From Syncephalis plumigaleata (lineage: Eukaryota > Zoopagomycota > Zoopagomycetes > Zoopagales > Piptocephalidaceae): a stretch of 23,909 nt of DNA. The position numbers were made by a program, and so were the translations under genes. This document shows positions 5,192-23,662 of the stretch, in pieces; the first letter of the stretch is position 1; each line of letters begins with the position of its first letter. Location: assembly GCA_025201365.1 (NCBI GenBank), contig JAIXMF010000211.1, positions 1 through 23,909 on the forward strand. Direction: 5' to 3'. Below the pieces are notes generated by a model, which was given only the letters and a program-made list of their open reading frames with translations, ran no database searches and had not been told where the DNA came from.

Positions 5192-7510
5192 TTAGTTAAA
5201 TGTAGGAACCTTGGCATAACCAGGATAATTGGTCGAATACTGCATGTGGAAGGGAGAATACGCCATTGACATGGATACCGAGGTGACCGAGGTGAATCCC
5301 TTGGATGGTTTGACATGGGACAAAGCACGACGAGAACTACGGGACGCCCTGGTCATCGCTACCGAGGCACGCTGCGAGAGACGACGCGACAGTGGCACTT
5401 GCTCCATCAGCTCGCTAGGCGTCTCTTCTTTCATCAGGTCCATCTCGCGATTGGATAAGGTGCGAACAAGACGTGTTGGTGCCGACATCGTACGCGACAA
5501 ACGAGCGAGACCCGCGGATAAACTGCGTCTAATTGATTTTGACTTTTTCATGGCGATCGCATTATGGTTGCTATTACTCTGACTGATAGATGGTGTGATA
5601 GGTTCTGTCGTTTCATTGCTAGCCGATGACACGTTGCTGCTCATGTTGCCTTGTAATATCGATGCAGTTTGATCCTCGTCACTCTCCTCCTGTGCAATGG
5701 TCGCTAGTTCGCCGGGCATTCCTTGAGCATACGGCTCGATAATAAGCTCGGATGAACGGCGGGAATGCTCCACTACCATACTAGCCGCGGTCACCGCTGA
5801 TATTCCTCGACCGTGTAATGAACGTTCTGCCTCTTTACGTACTGCTTCGATCCTTTCTGCTTCAATGCGTTCTGCCTCCAGACGTTCAGCTTCTTTCTTC
5901 TCAGTCTCCAGACGTTCGGCTTCGAGTCTTTCGACTTCCTTCTTCTCGGCTTCAATTCTCTCGGCTTCTTTCTTCTCGGCCTCTAAGCGTTTAGCTTCCT
6001 TCTTCTCCGCTTCAATGCGTTCGGCCTCAATCCTTTCAGCTTCAATACGCTCGGCCTCCAGACGCTCGGCTTCTTTCTTCTCTGCTTCTAGACGTTCAAC
6101 CTCAAGTCTTTCAGCTTCCTTTTTCTCGGCTTCAATGCGTTCAGCTTCTTTCTTCTCGGCCTCTAAGCGTTTAGCTTCCTTCTTCTCCGCTTCAATGCGT
6201 TCGGCCTCAATCCTTTCAGCTTCAATACGCTCGGCTTCAATACGTTCTGCTTCCTTCTTCACGGCCTCTAGACGCTCCGCCTCAAGTCTTTCAGCTTCAA
6301 TACGCTCAGCTTCTTTCTTCTCAGCTTCTAGACGTTCGGCTTCCTTCTTCTCTGCTTCCTTACGCTCGGCCTCTTTGCGTTTCGCCTCTTTACGTTCCGC
6401 TTCCTTACGCTTGAGCTCCTTCCTTTCGGCCTCCTTGCGCTCTTGTTCTAGACGTCGGGCTTCACGCTTTTCGGCTTTTTGACGTTCGGCTTCAAGTCGC
6501 TCGGCTTCTTTACGTTCGGCTTCCTTCTTTTCGGCTTCCTTGCGCGCCTTCTTACGATCGAGCTTGGCTGACTTTGAACTCTTACGCACCATCTCCTTGC
6601 GCTCTTTCTCTTCTGCCGCCTTCTTCTCGGCTTCTAGACGCTCGGCTTCCTTCTTCTCGGCTTCTAGACGCTCCTCCTCTTTCTTCTCGGCTTCAATACG
6701 CTCGGCCTCAATCCTCTCAGCTTCCAGACGCTCGGCTTCAATGCGTTCTGCTTCCTTCTTCTCGGCCTCTAAACGTTCTGCTTCAATCCTTTCGGCCTCT
6801 AAACGTTCTGCTTCAATACGCTCAGCTTCCTTCTTCTCGGCCTCAAGTCTTTCGGCCTCTAGACGTTCAGCTTCTTCCTTTGCGCGCTGGGCTGCTTCCT
6901 CCTCCTCCTTCTGCACTCGCTTCTTCTCTTCTTCTTCCTCTTGCATCCACTTGGCAATCATTGCTTTACGCTCTTCTTCGTTTTCTTCCTCGTTGGCCAA
7001 ACGCTCTCGCTCCTCGAGTTCTTGAAGTCGCTGCTCCGCCTCCTCCTGCTTCTTCTGAGCCTCTGCAAAGCGTTCATCCGCTTGACGCTGATCTTCCTCG
7101 GCCTTTTGAATGGCAGCCTCGGCTTCCGCTAGTTTGCGCTCGGCCTCCTCTTGTTGCTTGCGAGCGAGCTCCTGTTGCTCTTGCGCTTCCTCAATTTGAC
7201 GCTTTGCACTTTCAATCGCCTCATCATCATGCGAATCCTCGGCCAGCTTCAACAAACGCTCCGCTTCGGCACGTGCTTTTGCCTGGGCGTTCCAGTCGGC
7301 AACCGCTTGCGACAGGGCATTTCTTGAGATACGCTCCCATTCCTGCGCTGTTTTCTTCCAATCCTCGGCTGCGGCTCGTTCCTTAGTCGCTTTGGCAAGT
7401 TCAGCCTCGGCTAACTGACGGGCTTCTTCGGCTTCTTCACGAGCGGTACTAAACCAATTGTACAAGTGGCTGAGCCAGGAGGTCAGCATCGACGGTAAGA
7501 GTGATGTCAT
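5192..7510 (-). CDS. Pentad-repeat charged helical protein, 772 aa
   Basis: Single uninterrupted frame, ATG at 7510-7508, TAA at 5194-5192. Residues 1-25 ([20 protein letters not shown]...) form a hydrophobic/amphipathic leader that may attach to a membrane (inference). Residues about 26-212 are Ala/Glu/Gln/Lys-rich helix. Residues about 213-560 are built from a five-residue unit, EAE[RK][ILK] ([15 protein letters not shown]), broken around 303-323 by a basic stretch ([17 protein letters not shown]). The pentad period and alternating charge fit a single alpha-helix or a charged rod better than a heptad coiled coil. The tail (561-772) is Ser/Arg-rich with many R-x-x-S/T sites ([24 protein letters not shown]), as for basophilic kinases. 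Function is unknown; a stiff spacer or cytoskeletal linker is possible. Long plus-strand frames at 5865-7386 are its antisense shadow. Confidence 0.85.
5881..6240 (-). repeat. Tandem duplication of a 180-bp unit (12 pentads)
   Basis: Bases 5881-6060 and 6061-6240 align at an offset of exactly 180 bp. Bases 5964-6055 and 6144-6235 are identical (92 bp), while the rest of the unit differs at about 19 positions. It lies inside the pentad-repeat gene and keeps the frame (60 residues). Confidence 0.85.
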
Positions 7511-9256
7511 AGTAAATGAATATTATATAGGAGTGCACGATTTAATGTATTCTTGCAACTGGATAGACACAATGGAAGACGAGATACTGAATGAGAAAAG
7601 TGGTTTTAATGATAACACGCGGCGATATCGACAAAGACGCTGTCCATTAAATACCACGGACAGCGAGGTGCATACAATTGTACGTGTGCTGCATCTGGTT
7701 ATAGCATGGAGTGCATTCACATTGTTGTATTGTCTAAAATGGTGCCATTCTATCGAGTATGAGGCCAAACAAAACCGGCATCTGCACACTGCCCATAATG
7801 TCCACCAGTTGTGCCATTGATTGACATGGAAGAGGCAACACTTGTTATTGTTTCATCCATGGCCCATTTTGCGCACAAGCCGTACATCGCCATGTGACAA
7901 CCCTTTGCAGGCAGGCGTTGGCATAATGTACAAGTGCGTATGTGGCATTGTACGGCTAGACCAGCCTAGCATTTATGACTATATCCATTTTGACTCTGCA
8001 CGGCGTAACCTCGCAGACAAGCGTTTTCATTGGTGGCAAGTAGCTGCTGCTTTTACTTTTTACTTTTTTCTTACTCTTACAACTTGCGTAATCGCTAGAC
8101 GATGATATCATCGGCAACGTCATCCGAGTCGTGGAGTATGGTCAACGCCAATTAATTGTACAGTTCTATCGGATTGGCAACGTCGATATTGATGGCACTT
8201 TATCAAAAAGTATACTCTTCATGATTGGCACCATTCGATCATCGTCATTAGTGACATTTACACGCGTGTGCGTGTGCGTGTGCGTTCCATAGAACTCATT
8301 AATACTGTAACTTGGTTATTAGATTTCTATTTTTTCTTTCTCTCCTTTCTTTCGACGTTGGATGCATTTATATTTGCAATGTTACAAATTATCGCGTATA
8401 TTATTAGATTGTAATAGCTTACCGTATTAGAAACAAGATACCAAGAAGGGGCCACACTAATCGATGATTTTCAATTGTAAACATTCCAATGTACACTTGC
8501 GTATTTTATTAGAATACTATACTATGCTTATACAAGTATTATCAGATGGGACTATACTTGATTTACAAAAAATGGTAACACTTGTACATCATTACAAGTT
8601 GGTAGTAAATAGTTATTGTTGAATCATTTATTATCTATGTATGTGCGTGTATAAATGTGTGTATGTTTCCAATCTGTTACAGACAACCTTGATATATTAT
8701 CACGAGACCTGTTTTTTCGATGATATGCCATGTCTTCTCTCCTAAGCCGCTGAGCTGCACATTATCATTATCATTTCACTATTACTGCAAGCTGATAGTC
8801 TCTCTCGCTCTCTCGTTCATTCTTCTTTTTCCTTCTCTAATAAGCCAACATTGTTATCGCCGCATCCGCATCCATTTCATTTATTTTTCTATTGTTCTGC
8901 GGAGGTTTTCGAATTTTGCATCAGCATCTGTGTTTGAATAAGCCTACATATACTTATATACTTCTATATATCATACCTTATTATTTATAATATCATTACT
9001 TTTTATTAAGCTTGAATGCTACTTAAAAGTAAGTCAATACAACTGATAGACTGTGCGAATGGAAGTAGACCAACTACACTCGTCTATATTATTCTACGCT
9101 GTAGCACTAGTGTCATCTCATACTAACTGTTGCTTTGTAGATATCCTATTACTTGCAACTATAAGCAATCATCTGAACTATTGAATTTATTCTTGTTCTA
9201 TTTCATTATCACTATAATCCCCGTGTTGTTGTTATTGCTGTTATTGCTACGTCTCC
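7511..9256. other. Divergent intergenic region, likely promoters and 5' leaders
   Basis: Lies between the start of the pentad-repeat gene (minus) and the CH-GAS2 gene (plus). Bases 7458-8105 form one plus-strand frame interrupted only by TGA at 7818-7820; its translation resembles nothing I know and its first part overlaps the minus gene. An alternating purine-pyrimidine tract sits at 8261-8285. From about 8300 to 9250 the DNA is AT- and pyrimidine-rich. No RNA gene is recognised. Confidence 0.6.
8261..8285. repeat. GTGTGC-type alternating purine-pyrimidine tract
   Basis: 25 consecutive bases alternate purine and pyrimidine (CACGCGTGTGCGTG...), a sequence type able to adopt Z-DNA. It lies in the divergent promoter region. 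Confidence 0.8.
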
Positions 9257-12200
9257 ATGTCGTGGACAGTATCTCGTAAGTTAAAACCAGGCGAGCGTAC
9301 CTCCGTCATGTCCTATGACCGGGTACGTAAGCTGGCCTGTATGTTTGAAGAGGTACAAAAGAAGACGTTCACAAAATGGGTCAACGTTCAGCTACGTGAC
9401 ACGGGCCTTGCGGTCGAGGCACTCGAATATGATTTACGCGATGGCAAAGTCCTCCTCGCCCTCTTGTACACGCTAGCTCGACAGACTATACCGCCCACCG
9501 AACGCGGTACAATGCGTATTCATCGATTGGCCAATGTTGGCAACGCTCTACAATTCCTGGAACGTAAACTGGGCGGTCCACTAATGAATGTAGGCGCGGA
9601 GGATATCGTCGATGGCAATCTAAAATTAACGCTCGGTCTGGTCTGGGTGGTGATTCTACGTTTTCAAATTCAACGCGCAGCCAAAGCAGAGGCACACTCC
9701 GGGAATAATAATCAATCTGGCGGGACTAGTAATAGCAACTCAAATAATACACAGGCTAATAATGATGCAGGTGCCCTAACCGCAGAACCTGACAGTATAG
9801 CCAATGAAGACAGTTCAGTAAGTGAAATAGATGAAACGTAGCATAGTAATAGCAGTAAATTTATTGCTAATAATGATGATAATGATGATGATGATCAATT
9901 AGACAACTGACGACGAGAAGAGTAAATCCGAGGATCATCGACGACAATCCAAAGCAATTAACCAGCATGATGTACGTGCTTCATTACTCGGCTGGGTACG
10001 CAATCAAACGACGAATTATGTTAATGCACCGGAAGTGACGGACTTCAGTCGATCATGGCAGAGTGGCTGTCTATTCATGATACTTATCCATCGGTACGAC
10101 CCGGCTATCCTTCCTAATATCGATGAGATACTACTTAAGAACGGGAAGGAGCACTGGAGTGACACGTTAACCGAAGCATTCGCTTTAGCCCAAACCCACT
10201 TGGACATTACACCGCTACTCGAGGTGGAAGACATCGCCAACATGGAGGTACCCGATGAACGATCCATTATGATATATGTGTCCGAGTTTTATGTGGCAAT
10301 GACCGCTCGACAGAATCAAGATGTGTTAGCGCGGTGTAGAGCGGAGGAGGAGCGTCGTGCCGAGGAATGCCGCCTCGCTCAGGCCGACAAATGCCGAACT
10401 GTCGAGGAGACACGCGCTCGTCGAAATAGTGAACTGGCAAATAAGGAGGATAAACACGAGAGTCTTCAATTGAAGCAAGGCCGTGAACAACTTAGTCCGG
10501 TGCTACTAGTGCCGGAATCACCCACCGATGCATTTATGGAGCCGGCAGGTAATATTGAACAGCAATTACGTCGTATGACCCTGCCGAAAATACCTAGTCA
10601 TGGAGGAGAATCTAGCACTAGCTCTGCACTTAATAGTCCTACTACTGCCGCTGCTCCTACTACTATTATTGCTACTGCTATTGTATCAGATCCAATAGAA
10701 GAGATCTCAACCAATGAATCATATCAACACGATTCATCAATCGAGGAGAAGAAGGAGGAGGAGGAGGAAGAGGCATTACCACAAAGCATTTCTGGTAAGT
10801 GGATTAGTATCAGTAATAACAAATAATAATGAATATTAACGAATAATGGATAGAAGCTAGCATCGTAGCTGATCAGGTAGAGGATAGTGATCGTGAGTCG
10901 GAATTAGCACAAGACACGCCAGATCCAAACTATATAGAAGCAACTAGTCTGTATGCGGAAGCGGAAACACTGTACAACCAGCTGATGGCGGATTGCAGTC
11001 GTGCATTGGAGATGATGCCAGAGCCCCGCTCGATGGTTACATTCGCCACGGTAGCCGATATGAAACAGTTTGTCGAGCGTACGACCGAGATATCTACATG
11101 TTTAAGGGCTATTCACGAGGAGGACGGGCTTAGAACGATGCGAGAGATCCGCGAGGAAATTACCCAGCTTTGTCCCAACAGCGAGTTGATCGAGGATTGC
11201 GACATGCTGGAGGAATCCATATCGGCACTACTTACCCGACTAGCGGAAGAGGAGGAGCTATGTCGTCTGTTATCGGGCGAGATTGTCGGCCTAATTAGAA
11301 TCGCCGAGGCTGTGCAATCGATCGGCGAGAGTCTAGAGAAATCGGAGGCCGACTTGGACGACATGCTCGGTGATGGCAAATCGCTTAATACCACACGTAT
11401 TGAATTGATTAAAATTGCTGTAGGCGATGTTATTGGTATGCTGCAACAGAAACTACCGCCAAGTATTCCACCGGCAGTTGCCAATGAACTGCACCGATCG
11501 CGCGAGTTAGCGGAACGAGTAACCGGACGACTAGACGCGTGCGATCGCTACTTCCTAGGGGATGCTCAGCTTAACCAGATGCAATCTCGTATTGAAGCGG
11601 TAAAGGATAATATGACGGCCATTTCTCAATTTGTACCGGAGGCATTGGGTGCAGTCATTCAAGAGATCGAAAATCAACTGGACACCATCGATATTGACTT
11701 GAAACAGATGAGATTCACCACCACCGATCCGGACGAAGACAAGGAGCTAGACGACGATTTCAACGAGGATATTTCGGATATGCTTAACATTCGCAAGTTC
11801 GACTTGATGGAGGAGCTACTACGGACAAGATCGACGTTCGCCCAGGCTAAAGAGGACGCCTATCGTATGAAACGTGCCAGCTTCGCCATCGATGAGTGTC
11901 GTCGCTACATACAGGATTGTCTGACCATTTATCGTGAACATACTACGGAACGTGAGAAACGACTAGCGCAGGCGTTAGTCGACAATGACACGTCGAGCAA
12001 GGATGAGGCGGCGTCCATCGATAAGACAGCACCGAAAGAGCAGCATATCAACGTGATTATCCAGGAAATCGAGGTGGGATTCGAAAAGTTGCAAACAATG
12101 TGTTCCGATGGATTTGAAGGACACGAGAACATCGAGAAGATGCTCGACGAGGCGGAACGAGCGCGTGACGACGTGCGTAGTGCCATTGATTTGGAGCGAA

Positions 12201-14313
12201 ACCTGGATGCCATGCTTACTCGGTATAGCGACATGGTCACATTCTACGCCGGTGTAATGCAGCGTATCGACAAGGCGCGTTCATCATTGCCGACCGATAG
12301 TCAATATACGAAGGATAAAGTGAAGGAGCCCGAGCTAATGAAGATTGGCTCCGAGATTATGCGCATCACTGCCGATGACTGTACCGCATTGTGCGATAGT
12401 ATCGACGAGTACAGTCGTAGCGATTTCGTATTAGCGAGCGAGTTGGCCGGTCTCGATCGTTTCCGTATGCGAGTCAACATGAATTACACGCAGTTAATGG
12501 CCGCGTGGAATACACTGAAAGCGGAACTGGAAAGTCTACGCAGCGATGGCAATGTGAACGAGCAGCGCCTTCTCTACTCGCGTAACATCTCCATGGTGGC
12601 GTCGCGTGTCAATGAACTGCACGCGGCCATGCTAGATGCAACGCACGATCGACAATCCGCATTGGAACGACTGTATGAATTGCAATCGCAAGTGAAGGAA
12701 CTAGGCGAGCAATTAGGCCGGGTGATACAAGATATGGAGAATGACGATGGCACGGATAGTTTCCAGGAGGTGAGCCACGCGGTGATGGAGCAACTAGAAC
12801 AACTGGAAGCGTTGACCGTCTCCAAGATTCGAGATGCCGAATTAATGGAACAATTCCAGGATGAAATGCTCGATCTGGATGATGATCTCAACCATCTACT
12901 GAATATGGTCGATGAATCGATTGTCGAGGCGGCCACCGTCACTAATCGGGATGATATCGAAATGCTTATCCATCGATTATCCGTCTGTCTAACCGATGCG
13001 GAAACCGAGATACCTCAACGTTTAGCGGATATCAGCTCATTGGCCGCTTCCATCAATGGACGAGTAGCCTCGGAGGAGTTTAGTAAATTCGAGAAGCAAT
13101 GGCATGAGACACGTTCATTTGCGGCAAATGAATTGGAAGCATTACGTAAAAAACGAATCCATAAACCGACTGTAGTACTCGAGACAATACCGGATATTGC
13201 AGAGGATGACAGTGCCAATGAAGAAGAAGGCACTGAATTACCAGCATCAGCGTCAGCATCAGCAACGTCATCATCCGCGATAGAGCAGCGAAAGCATCGA
13301 CGTACTAATAGTAATAGTACACCTAGTGGACATGCTCACACTAGTAGTACCAGTTCTATTAGTCATATACCACGTAGACGATCATCGAGTGTCAGCTCTG
13401 TTGGTGAACAGCCATCAGCATCATCATCATTAGCATCATCAGCATCAGCATCCACGGCAACGCCATCGCTTGTATCGCGACCTGGTTTCAAATGGATTCG
13501 CCCCATGCTTGTTCATCCATCGCCTAATCGTTATGTGGCAGATACATCAGATAAACTGGATGTTCGTGTGGCGAGTATCATTAACGAGTGTAACATGGAG
13601 ATTAAAATAGAGAGAACACAACCGGGCAGATACATTATCGGTGACGTAGAACCGAAGGCCATCTTCTGTCGTATGCTAAACGATCGTATGGTGATGGTAC
13701 GCGTTGGTGGTGGATGGGTCGAACTGTCACGGTAAGTCAACTAAGAATAGCGCTATTTATCTATGATGATACTAACAATTATGTCATGATCATTTCATAT
13801 TACACTATCCATTGTAGATATTTATCAAGTAAGTTTAATAACAATAATACATTACATATAATTTAATATCATGTTATAGCTCATGCTGCATTATTTCATA
13901 AATTGGTACCCATGGATTCGAATCAACAACCAACACCATTATCGCCATTGTATCCTATTCGATTACCGGCTAGAACCCTGCCAACAACACCTTCCTCACC
14001 TGGCTTAACTGTTACTAATACTGAAACTAATATTACTACTGCTCCTAAAAGTAATCGTGCACATAGTTCCGGTTCAATCCCTAAATCGCCTAGACGTTCC
14101 ATGCGTTCACCGAGCTTGTCGCCAAAGTTGAAAGCACGCTCGATTAGCTCACCTGGTGTCTCACCACAGCCAAGTCCAACCATGTCACGATCATCATCGG
14201 CATCGGGCAAGAACAAACCGACGAGTCGTCCATTGTGTCGGGTAACCACGGATGGTAGTGATGTACACATTCGTATGGCTATTCGTATGGAACAAAACTA
14301 TTCACGTCAATAG
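9257..14313 (+). CDS. Tandem CH + helical rod + GAS2 cytoskeletal linker (spectraplakin-like), 1591 aa
   Basis: Proposed exons: 9257-9817, 9903-10794, 10854-13731, 13818-13828 and 13880-14313; all junctions keep frame (4776 nt). Residues about 33-139 are a calponin-homology domain with the actinin-type signature QKKTFTKWVN and a second signature around DGNLKLTLGLVWVVI. Residues about 210-320 are a second CH domain (LLGWVRNQT, FSRSWQSGCLFMILIHRYDP). An unusually long Asn/Ser-rich linker of about 70 residues separates them. About 500-1200 is charged helix, possibly spectrin-like. A Ser/Arg-rich stretch holds SHIPRRR, an SxIP motif of the EB1-binding kind. Residues 1386-1458 are a GAS2 microtubule-binding domain (GRYIIGD, RMVMVRVGGGWVELSRYLSTH), completed only by splicing the 11-nt exon. 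The tail is Ser/Pro-rich and basic. Known family members crosslink actin and microtubules. I infer the same job here; the spectraplakin relation needs a tree. Confidence 0.9.
13361..13372 (+). other. SxIP motif (SHIP) in the CH-GAS2 protein
   Basis: Codons AGT CAT ATA CCA encode S-H-I-P, followed by RRRSSS, inside a Ser-rich basic stretch just before the GAS2 domain. SxIP motifs flanked by basic residues bind EB1-type plus-end proteins in animal +TIPs. Short motifs arise by chance, so this is suggestive only. Confidence 0.55.
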
Positions 14314-14428: not shown

Positions 14429-16179
14429 CTATTGAGCTGTGGTAGCAGGTACTGATGTTTTCTGATGAATATCCTTAAAGAAGGGATCTATAGATAAATA
14501 GATAGTTAGTTAGTTAGGTAAATATTACATAAAACAAATGCTACTTACGTTCCAGTGCATCACGAGCACTAATTCGTTTTTCCGGTTGGAATTCAAGTAA
14601 TGCCTAATAGAATGCAGCGAATTAACAATGCAATCGAGTAAATATACGCATGTTCACTTCTTACATTTAATAGATCAATACCAGTTGCATTTAATTTAGG
14701 ATAGTATCGCTCCAATGGTACACGGGGATGAACAGGGAAATCCGGCTGTATTCAATGGATATCATATCATAGTTATTACAACTATTCCTATTGCAATCAT
14801 GAATTACTTACACGATAGTTGGGTAATTGTGTAATACTAGGCCATCCTGTTTCATTAGGTGTACCCAACACTGTAATAGAAATCATTCAAGTTAAGGCAT
14901 AACAATTAGTTATTGGTAATGGATGAGTTGTATTTGTCGTGTAACAGCAAAGAAAAGGATATTTGAAAATACGTAAAAGTTGATCTTGTACCGAGTTACC
15001 CGGGAATAATGGACGTCCAGATGCCATTTCTATTAATGATAGATAAGTAACATATATAATAATAATAATAATAATAATCATGCTTACCTGCAAATATACA
15101 ACCTACAGACCACAAATCGATACTGGTAGAGTATTGACGTGAACCCATAAGTACATCGGGTGGTCGATACCATAGTGTTACAACTTCGTGCGAGTAACTT
15201 CTAACTGGAATACCGAAAGCGCGTGCTAATCCGAAATCACCTAGTTTCAATTCGCCCTTCTATGAATAATGAACGTGTTAATAAGGAAAGTACGCATTGT
15301 ATAATTATGAATGATTCTTACTTTGTTGATAAGCAAGTTTTGTGGTTTTAAATCCTATAAACAAATAAACAGATAACAAATAAGCAACTATTATCATATA
15401 TATAGATATAGACTTACTCGATGAAGTACTCGTTGTGCGTGACAAAATGCAATGCCTTGCAATAGTTGATATAGTAGATTCTAGATTATATTAATGAAAT
15501 GATAGGAACATCAATAAATAAATAGTTATATATATATATATGAATATATATCTACCTGAATAGTAGGCAAGTCAATATCGCCACCATTTGCATCGAGATA
15601 TTTCTTCAGATCCGAATCCATATACTCAAATACTAGGGTTAATTTCCGATCAGTATGAAGTACATCATGTAATCTATTAGGATGTCATGACAAGTATAAA
15701 TAGTCCAGTTAATCAAGATGTAATAACGCGTAACAAGTACGAGTCATTATTTACCGAACAATATTGGTATGAACTAGTTCCTTTAATAGTGATATTTCAC
15801 GGATAGCTGTACATGGCACCTAATAAATGGATGGAGGAGATACGTAAATATGATTACTACGCATCATAGTAATGCTTTCCATTTCACTTACCCCTTCTTC
15901 TTCGTTATCTAGACGAATACGTTTAAGGGCGACTATTTCATTGGTTTCACGATTGAGTGATTTGTATACAATGCCATAGGTGCCTATATACGTATATACG
16001 TATATATATATATATCCATAATGGTCAATATATCATACTGTGTTGTCTATTTTATCCATTAAACTAATACTGCTTACCTTCGCCTAGTTTCTCTATTTTC
16101 TATTTATACCATAGGATTAGTATTAGTAGTAGTATATGTAGAATAACAAATAAAAAGCACCTACCTGATATTTATCCAT
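14429..16179 (-). CDS. PHO85: CDK5/Pho85-like cyclin-dependent kinase, 13 exons, 300 aa
   Basis: Minus-strand exons in order: 16179-16165, 16099-16078, 15983-15892, 15819-15755, 15673-15556, 15480-15418, 15354-15322, 15259-15088, 15029-14963, 14872-14812, 14745-14665, 14603-14549 and 14487-14429 (903 nt). The protein is full length for the family. It has GEGTYG at 11-16, ALK with Lys33, PCTAIRE at 45-51, HRDLKPQN at 124-131, DFG at 144-146, and the T-loop [21 protein letters not shown]. The AFGIPV loop with Ser159 rather than an activating Thr, and Tyr15, are features of CDK5/Pho85, which need a cyclin but no CAK phosphorylation. Known roles cover nutrient signalling and morphogenesis in fungi. 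PCTAIRE instead of PSTAIRE or PSSALRE is a variant. The ninth intron (14962-14873) appears to be AT-AC. The gene converges on the CH-GAS2 gene with 115 bp between stops. Confidence 0.95.
14873..14962 (-). other. Putative U12-type AT-AC intron in the kinase gene
   Basis: On minus, the 90-nt intron begins ATATCCTTTT at 14962-14953, the U12 donor consensus. It has CCTTAAC at 14897-14891, close to the U12 branch consensus TTCCTTAAC, and ends TATTAC at 14878-14873. This splice (phase 2, within Lys216) yields RIFKVLGTPNE, the conserved CDK sequence. The only usable GT-AG alternative, GTTACA to ACAG, would insert YPFLCL in place of that Val. Confidence 0.82.
15056..15079. repeat. (AAT)n microsatellite in kinase intron 8
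   Basis: Trinucleotide run inside the intron at 15030-15087. Read on minus it is (ATT)n, close to the donor side. Confidence 0.8.
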
Positions 16180-22048: not shown

Positions 22049-23662
22049 ATGGTGAACTGGTTTAGAGCAAAGCTAGGCTCTATTGACCTGGACGATATTT
22101 TAGCGTATGTATTTTGTTATTAGCAACGTGGTAAATATTAACTGAATTCATCTTTGTCATTACTTGTTTGTTTGTTTGCTTGTTTATTCCCTTCTTGCTT
22201 ATACATTTAGCTATGACACATTCAAAGTAGTCCATGTACGTGATCGTCGCTTAGGCGGTCTATACTGGTTCTTCAATATTACAGTATTTGCCTATGTTAT
22301 TTTCAATATTGTTATGGATCAAAAGTACAATATCAAGGAAGCACCCGTGCCAGGTAATATGAGGCCATTTTCTTTGCATTATATCCATCAATACTTACCC
22401 TTTATTCGCTTCTCCTTCTAGGATCCATTCGTATCTCGCTTCAAGAACCGGAAGGAGGCATTAAGACACCGGATTATTGTCGACTTACTCAAGGATGTAC
22501 TTATTTGGCTGCCAACCAAATCATCTATCCTCAAGGCAATGATCGCGAGGTTTTTATTACTACACGTATCTCAAGGACTATTTACACCTTACCGGCGGGC
22601 TGTGACACAGGTCTACCATCTAGACCCGAGTGTATGTACACACGCGGTACTAAAAACGCCACCCGTATTAGTTATGTGGCCGATGTTGAAAACTATACAG
22701 TAAGTGACAGCAATACGAGGTAGTAGCAATAATAATAAAAGGGTAATAACATCTCAATAATGATGACAGTTAATGATTGAACACTCGATTCGCGGTAAAT
22801 TAACAGCAGTATCAGAACGATCCGGTCTACTTAAGGGAACACTCTACGAGAGTAGTGACACAGTTGGCGGTAAAGCTCGAGTAATAAAGAGATTCCTTAA
22901 TGAGACAACAGACCTGATGTGGATGGTGACATCATTTCATTGGGCGAGCTCATGTCTGCTGCCAAATTGACACTTGATGGTAAGTGGAACAGCAATGCAA
23001 CATTATGCTGCCAGTAATTCCAAATCATTTATTAATATACAATATTAGCTCCATCTTATGCACCCGGTGCTAACAGAGCAAATGGTGAGACGCAACGCAG
23101 TGCTGGTGCAGTCGTTGTAGTGGTGATCGATTATCAGAATCAAGTACGCTATCCTAGTCAGATCAAGTATGGCTATTGGCCTTCCGTGATTCCAGGTGCC
23201 GAATACAAGGTGCTCGAGGTTATTAGAAATCCCGATAATACGGTCACCGAGATCAATCGACATGGTGTCAAGATAGTATTCCAACAATCGGGCACCATTG
23301 GTCATTTTGATCCACTCACCTTGCTGGTTAATCTTGTGTCGGCTATCGCACTATTGAAGGTGGCCTCCATTGTCGTGGAAGTATTGATGTTACGTTTCCT
23401 GCCCGAACGTAAGATGTACCAGAGTTGCAAATTCGAACATACGGAGGATTTCGGTGATCTACGTAAATCGCGCAAACGTGCCCAATCCTACAACGAGCAA
23501 GATCAAAGTGGTATCAATCAAGTGGAGCCATTGGATAACAGTGAGCACTACATCATACGTCCACCTAGTGTTGTTACAAGCGAGCAAGGTCTCATACAAC
23601 GCCCTCACCATACTGGTAGTTATCCTCCACAGCACGCGTCTATAGAGATGAATCAACGATAA
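22049..23662 (+). CDS. P2X-type ATP-gated cation channel, five exons, with one frame break
   Basis: Proposed exons 22049-22104, 22211-22353, 22422-22699, 22770-22979 and 23049-23662. They total 1301 nt, one base short of a whole frame; about 433 aa if a base is missing. P2X receptors are trimeric channels with two membrane spans. Seen here: YDTFK at 20-24 (the conserved N-terminal T-x-K site), RDRRLGGLYWFFNI leading into TM1 (about 36-54), and an ectodomain with NYTLMIEHSIR. NRHGVKIVFQQSGTIGHFDP follows, then TM2 (about 320-344) and YQSCK at 353-357 (the YxxxK trafficking motif). The ectodomain has only four Cys versus ten in vertebrates, and I see no N-F-R ATP-binding motif. The frame changes in exon 4 between about 22890 and 22916. 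Related channels in Dictyostelium work at contractile vacuoles; the role here is unknown. Confidence 0.88.

Follow-up and report, generated by a model that had tools for sequence, protein, structure and literature searches.

Gene content of the window and structure of the kinase gene

The window, by which we mean the whole stretch of 23,909 nucleotides analysed here, carries on its minus strand a complete coding region for a CDK5/Pho85-type kinase (14429..16179), made up of 13 exons; of its introns, 11 have GT-AG ends and one has AT-AC ends. The spliced frame measures 903 nt, stop codon included, and encodes 300 residues. A phmmer search against solved structures retrieved CDK5 as the best match (1.1e-132), aligned over residues 1-288 of the 300; Pho85 was not among the best 60 of the 68 matches. 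Several other features were observed along the window. On the plus strand, an exon of a P2X receptor, an ATP-gated channel, is located at 23036-23662 (PF00864, 7.4e-9), and an ORF from 22146 looks, by eye, like the start of a P2X gene. In the available text of PMC3853471, P2X receptors are reported from three basal fungi, namely Allomyces, Spizellomyces and Batrachochytrium. Three adjoining plus-strand ORFs (9218-13735), which probably form one gene, encode two calponin-homology domains and a GAS2 domain, in a layout like that of cytoskeletal linkers. A minus-strand ORF of 776 aa (5192-7522) is rich in repeats and had no Pfam match at 0.001, and no Rfam family reached its gathering score within the window.

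The AT-AC intron is the ninth of the kinase gene (14873..14962, minus strand, 90 nt, phase 2), and its classification as U12-type draws on its motifs, the reading frame and a second allele. It reads ATATCCTTTTC...TGCCTTAACTTGAATGATTTCTATTAC and separates the upstream exon 9 (14963..15029, minus strand), which ends in TTC AA, from exon 10 (14812..14872, minus strand), which starts with AG TG TTG and opens with a split codon (K). The junction has a 1-nt ambiguity, an A that can be assigned to either side, which leaves the mRNA unchanged. Removal of positions 14962-14873 restores IFKVLGTPNE, and the CDK5 alignment passes through LLRIFKVLGTP without a gap at the exon 9/10 junction. Among the 16 in-frame splicings found nearby (GT/GC-AG and AT-AC), the AT-AC splice at 14962-14873 was accepted because it is the only one that gives an in-frame, gapless kinase of 300 aa. 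Joining the same AT donor to the nearby ACAG broke the kinase frame.

The AT-AC motifs would be a coincidence if the intron were instead of the U2 type, with GT-AG or GC-AG ends formed by a GTTACA or GCTGTT donor and ACAG. These two splicings are the nearest in length after the AT-AC one among the 16, and a third, GTATTTTCA..ACAG, with 4 residues fewer, ties with the first of them. However, either of the two would add a net 4 or 5 residues (KYPFLC.. replacing KV), an insertion within a segment that is free of gaps in the CDK5 alignment. In addition, GTTACA has 3 of the 6 bases of GTAAGT, against 4-6 in the gene's remaining 11 introns, and the quality of the U12 donor (9/9) and branch site (8/9) would be left unexplained, as would the pairing of these motifs across the genome. 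We consider such a U2-type intron very unlikely.

The same gene was found on a second contig. The window contig (C126) and contig C223 are 97.6% identical over their main 21-kb block, and their kinase genes differ at four coding positions, all synonymous, so that the encoded proteins are identical. Intron 9 is kept in C223, with a single substitution in its 90 nt, at 14915, outside the motifs. A pseudogene or an assembly artefact mimicking an intron might be suspected given that C126 is a minor contig and an apparent second haplotype, but this gene was also recovered from C223, where the protein is identical, the coding changes are all synonymous and the intron differs at one base, which makes the probability of either practically nil.

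Splice-site and branch-point motifs

The 5' splice site of intron 9, ATATCCTTT (14954..14962, minus strand), matches the minor consensus RTATCCTTT at all nine positions, whereas it shares just two of six bases with GTAAGT. Close to the 3' end of the intron lies the branch-point sequence TGCCTTAAC (14891..14899, minus strand), which includes CCTTAAC at 14891-14897 and agrees with the consensus TTCCTTAAC at eight of nine positions. The AC at the 3' splice site (14873..14874, minus strand) ends 19 nt after the branch A. The consensus strings used to score donor and branch site were those of the preliminary description and of common knowledge. Scored in the same way, the other 11 introns of the kinase gene agreed with the U12 donor in 3-5 of its 9 bases, with GTAAGT in 4-6 of 6, and with the branch consensus in no more than 7 of 9; they look U2-type. 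The preliminary description had given the intron coordinates, its donor, the CCTTAAC element, the terminal AC and the in-phase restoration of IFKVLGTPNE, all of which were borne out on the minus strand. Its statement that the other introns are GT-AG holds for the remaining 11 of the kinase gene, and its U12-type call is backed by the gene itself, through the 13-exon frame, the motif scores and the comparison of in-frame splicings.

Taken singly, these motifs are not rare. RTATCCTTT was seen once in the window against 0.50 expected, with at least one occurrence in 40 of 100 shuffles, and CCTTRAC was seen four times against 4.04 expected. The fuller TCCTTRAC is absent from intron 9, and its two matches in the window are both at other places. 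The chance of a donor match at a given site is about 2.7e-5, and that of a branch match of at least 8/9 within 40 random nt is about 0.006. What is improbable is their conjunction at an exon edge, with both the frame and the protein restored.

We also computed the pairing of these sites with the minor snRNAs. The intron 9 donor formed duplexes of -6.8 kcal/mol with U6atac and -5.4 kcal/mol with the 5' end of U11, and the branch site paired with the branch-binding region of U12 at -8.6 kcal/mol. Three donors of U2-type introns in the kinase gene paired more weakly with U6atac (-1.1, -0.3 and -2.9 kcal/mol). With U11, these donors gave -1.7, -3.4 and -5.3 kcal/mol, a comparison that is not decisive because the last of them pairs nearly as well as the intron 9 donor.

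Minor introns across the genome

We searched the 32.6-Mb genome for RTATCCTTT followed by CCTTRAC 42-72 nt later, with the pattern read backwards as a control. The motif pair occurred 47 times, against two for the reversed pattern, an excess of about 20-fold in which about two of the 47 pairs are expected by chance. Several of the short contigs, such as C126 relative to C223, appear to represent second haplotypes of large ones, and the raw counts are therefore inflated by alleles. Merging alleles and near copies gave 34 initial groups and, as two of these were the same gene, 33 distinct loci, of which 21 start with AT and 12 with GT. An in-frame splice was assigned at 28 of the 33 loci, the kinase included, and five (groups 6, 18, 19, 24 and 27) were left without one. 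Acceptors were picked for frame, and conditional on that choice are the ends of the 28 introns (18 AT-AC and 10 GT-AG), their phases (14 in phase 1, 10 in phase 2 and four in phase 0) and their branch-to-3'-end distances (median 19, range 10-28). The 19 nt reported earlier for intron 9 stands as a value and equals this median. The accompanying remark that such a distance is at the long end of the usual range may hold for other species, but in the present genome the distance is ordinary.

Apart from the kinase, 27 spliced peptides were available, 20 of which were run against Pfam (groups 2, 5, 8, 17, 29, 30 and 32 were left out). A family match was obtained for 16 of the 20, and in 14 of these the matched stretch spans the splice junction, with families including ATP-synt_ab, Cpn60_TCP1, DCP2, MIF4G_like, GCP_N_terminal and, twice, MoCoBD_2; among the 14, LSM12_LSM scored below its curated cut-off and the ELP1 propeller spans the junction by a few residues only. 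The matches to TAF2_3rd and LsmAD lie to one side of the junction, and four peptides (groups 0, 1, 26 and 33) had no Pfam match.

Two MoCoBD_2 paralogues (loci L005 and L055), which from our own reading we take to be xanthine-dehydrogenase-like, have in common an AT-AC minor intron, placed at an identical residue and in an identical phase. This shared position and phase suggests that the intron is older than the duplication that gave rise to the paralogues. The base preceding CCTTRAC is a T in only 9 of the 33 loci, and the U12 snRNA of this genome reads GUAAGGAUAU, as compared with GUaAGGAAAA in the Rfam U12 consensus. The branch motif may be relaxed upstream of CCTTRAC.

Minor-spliceosome RNAs and proteins

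A working minor spliceosome had been proposed from intron 9. Searches for its RNA components recovered U11 and U6atac above their Rfam cut-offs, a recognisable U12 below its gathering score, and a candidate for U4atac. U6atac scored 33.7 bits (cut-off 33) and contains the elements AAAAGGAGAGA and CAAGGA, ending in T8; it was not listed in a fast gathering-filter rescan of the locus that holds it (L069). U11 reached 53.7 bits in cmscan (cut-off 39), where an Sm-like site, AATTTTTTGG, was present, and 35.7 bits, under the cut-off, in the genome search. For U12, no match was obtained at E 0.001 in the first genome search, and two matches of 27.4 and 22.8 bits were retrieved at loose limits, against a gathering score of 53. 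The start of U12 reads AUGUCUUAAUUAAUGAGUAAGGAUAUAAC, and its 5' part, including GAGUAAGGA, is close to the model.

The U4atac candidate, on C306, scored 20.1 bits (cut-off 53) and has an Sm-like site, CCAATTTTTGG, and a TCCCAT at -70. It was absent from a rescan up to E 5, and another locus scored higher. Its computed duplex gain is -26.5 kcal/mol with U6atac against -14.4 kcal/mol with U6, and the former value was reached by one of 3000 random segments (random mean -9.0), drawn without the candidate's own loci. An Rfam match to U4atac with the higher score of 22.4 bits, on C112 (L039), was rejected and the C306 candidate preferred; the duplex gain of the C112 match with U6atac was just -16.9 kcal/mol and no TCCCAT was found within 90 bases upstream of it.

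As regards proteins specific to the minor spliceosome, an exon of PDCD7/U11-59K was identified at 29.5 bits (cut-off 27), reading WDQYIVEPTGTNSTRASRVPPFWVTPSPPTNRKWAACLL, while CCDC84/CENATAC gave no match in the genome search, for which the controls were no guide. Two diverged copies of the U2 snRNA were also observed, on C24 (L087, 402567-402716) and on C99 (6966-7115), with 52.6 and 41.6 bits, respectively, against 132 for the main copies; they are perhaps pseudogenes.

Judged from sequence, the genome looks like it carries all or nearly all of the minor snRNA genes. Support for the proposed minor spliceosome comes from the excess of motif pairs, the 28 in-frame introns, many of which interrupt conserved domains, U11, U6atac, the recognisable U12, the U4atac candidate and the U11-59K exon. 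These genes also bear on whether intron 9 could be an AT-AC intron removed by the major spliceosome. Rare U2-dependent AT-AC introns exist, and AT-AC ends by themselves do not define the splicing machine. However, with minor snRNA genes in the genome, a donor that fits GTAAGT poorly and the U12 consensus fully, and a near-consensus U12 branch site, the chance that intron 9 belongs to this kind is exceedingly small. We are confident that it is a genuine U12-type AT-AC intron of a CDK5/Pho85-type gene in an early-diverging fungus, and one of about 30 or more in this genome.

The steps of minor splicing are established, with U11 and U6atac acting at the donor, U12 at the branch site, and U4atac/U6atac and U5 in catalysis. 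On intron 9, U11 and then U6atac would pair with the ATATCCTTT donor, and U12 would pair with CCTTAAC, bulging the branch adenosine. U4atac/U6atac and U5 would then finish catalysis, with ..TTCAA joined to AGTG.. at the AC. We infer that the RNA is spliced at 14962-14873 and that the components described above form the machine.

Putative promoter elements of the likely U12 snRNA gene

The likely U12 snRNA gene (L041, 1440-1770; C373:829734-830064) has U6-like promoter elements and ends in a run of T. With the starts of the snRNA genes set by alignment, TCCCAT lies at position -54 and is followed by a TATA-like box at -28, a spacing of 26 nt, compared with 25 in U6 (TCCCAT at -61, TATA-like box at -36). 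The corresponding positions in U6atac are -66 and -31. By contrast, TCCCAT is present in U11 and in the U4atac candidate with no TATA-like box within 90 bases. Overall, TCCCAT is present within 90 bases upstream in five of six snRNA kinds (U6, U6atac, U11, U12 and the U4atac candidate), and the five main copies of U2 carry TCCCAC, at -62. TCCCAT occurred in 326 of 20,000 random 90-mers, a figure that makes no fair test since the motif was first picked by eye.

We tentatively raise the possibility that U12 in this fungus is made by RNA polymerase III, a reading that we hold to be somewhat doubtful. The U12 gene has a T8 run at +257 to +264, and a polymerase III transcript would, with the same reserve, be of about 265 nt, with an extended, folded 3' domain. 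The 267-nt U12 stretch folds at -88 kcal/mol, a single value with no shuffle comparison. A copy of U12 on C290, 97% identical and without the upstream TCCCAT, covers, give or take a few bases, just the interval between the gene start and the T-run; such an extent is what might be expected of a copied transcript, if that doubtful reading is right. The argument from the T-run is weakened because TTTTT likewise follows the U2 genes. The promoter motif TCCCATAANNNGAT, a longer form of TCCCAT, is not enriched genome-wide, with 11 matches against 15 for the reversed control; judged from their coordinates, two of the 11 immediately precede the U6atac and U11 genes. When these 11 loci and the two U12 loci were scanned against Rfam at gathering level, U11 alone was listed. 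A literature search, largely confined to papers outside subscription, found none on U12 snRNA and RNA polymerase III in fungi. In the usual teaching, snRNA genes are divided between polymerases. Were the U12 gene transcribed by RNA polymerase III, this division would be more fluid than usually taught.

Probable fungal host and comparison with known minor introns

Alpha-aminoadipate reductase (LYS2) is typical of fungi. Its model, TIGR03443, reached 1234 bits with neighbours in the present genome (cut-off 1030) and exceeded the cut-off in none of 14 control genomes. This fungal-type LYS2 points to a fungal host. The host is probably an early-diverging fungus, perhaps a zoosporic one.

Minor introns have been described in several early-diverging fungi. 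According to the sections of PMC10639083 available to us, Rhizophagus irregularis and Basidiobolus meristosporus have 205 and 249 of them, respectively, with the full set of four minor snRNAs reported from Rhizophagus, and minor introns are also present in the chytrid Spizellomyces punctatus and in Neocallimastigomycetes; for Ascomycota and Basidiomycota, the same sections mention no convincing support. Rhizopus oryzae and Phycomyces blakesleeanus are described, in the accessible part of PMC2846911, as having few minor introns together with minor snRNAs, and the numbers quoted for them in PMC10639083 are about 4 and about 20. The intron described here adds to those already published for early-diverging fungi (PMC10639083, PMC2846911, as far as seen) and represents a known phenomenon, because such introns had already been reported in these lineages. 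What is added is an apparent member of the early-diverging fungi whose minor introns number in the dozens, most of them AT-AC in the exact-motif set.

The closest points of comparison can be drawn with these same fungi. Like Rhizophagus and Basidiobolus, the present genome appears to belong among early-diverging fungi, with the phase order 1>2>0 in both cases (PMC10639083, in the text available); it differs from them in its median branch-to-3' distance and in the proportion of loci with a T before CCTTRAC, as given above. The share of introns starting with AT (21/33) can be set against the approximately 26% of AT-AC introns given for human in the consulted text of PMC10639083, a comparison that is not like for like, as ours is an exact-motif set. 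With Rhizopus and Phycomyces, the genome has in common fungal AT-AC and GT-AG minor introns accompanied by minor snRNAs (PMC2846911, in part), whereas its 33 exact-motif-pair loci exceed the quoted numbers for both (PMC10639083, in part). Finally, Spizellomyces punctatus is reported to have both minor introns (PMC10639083) and P2X (PMC3853471), in the portions of these papers available, as is the case for the present genome.
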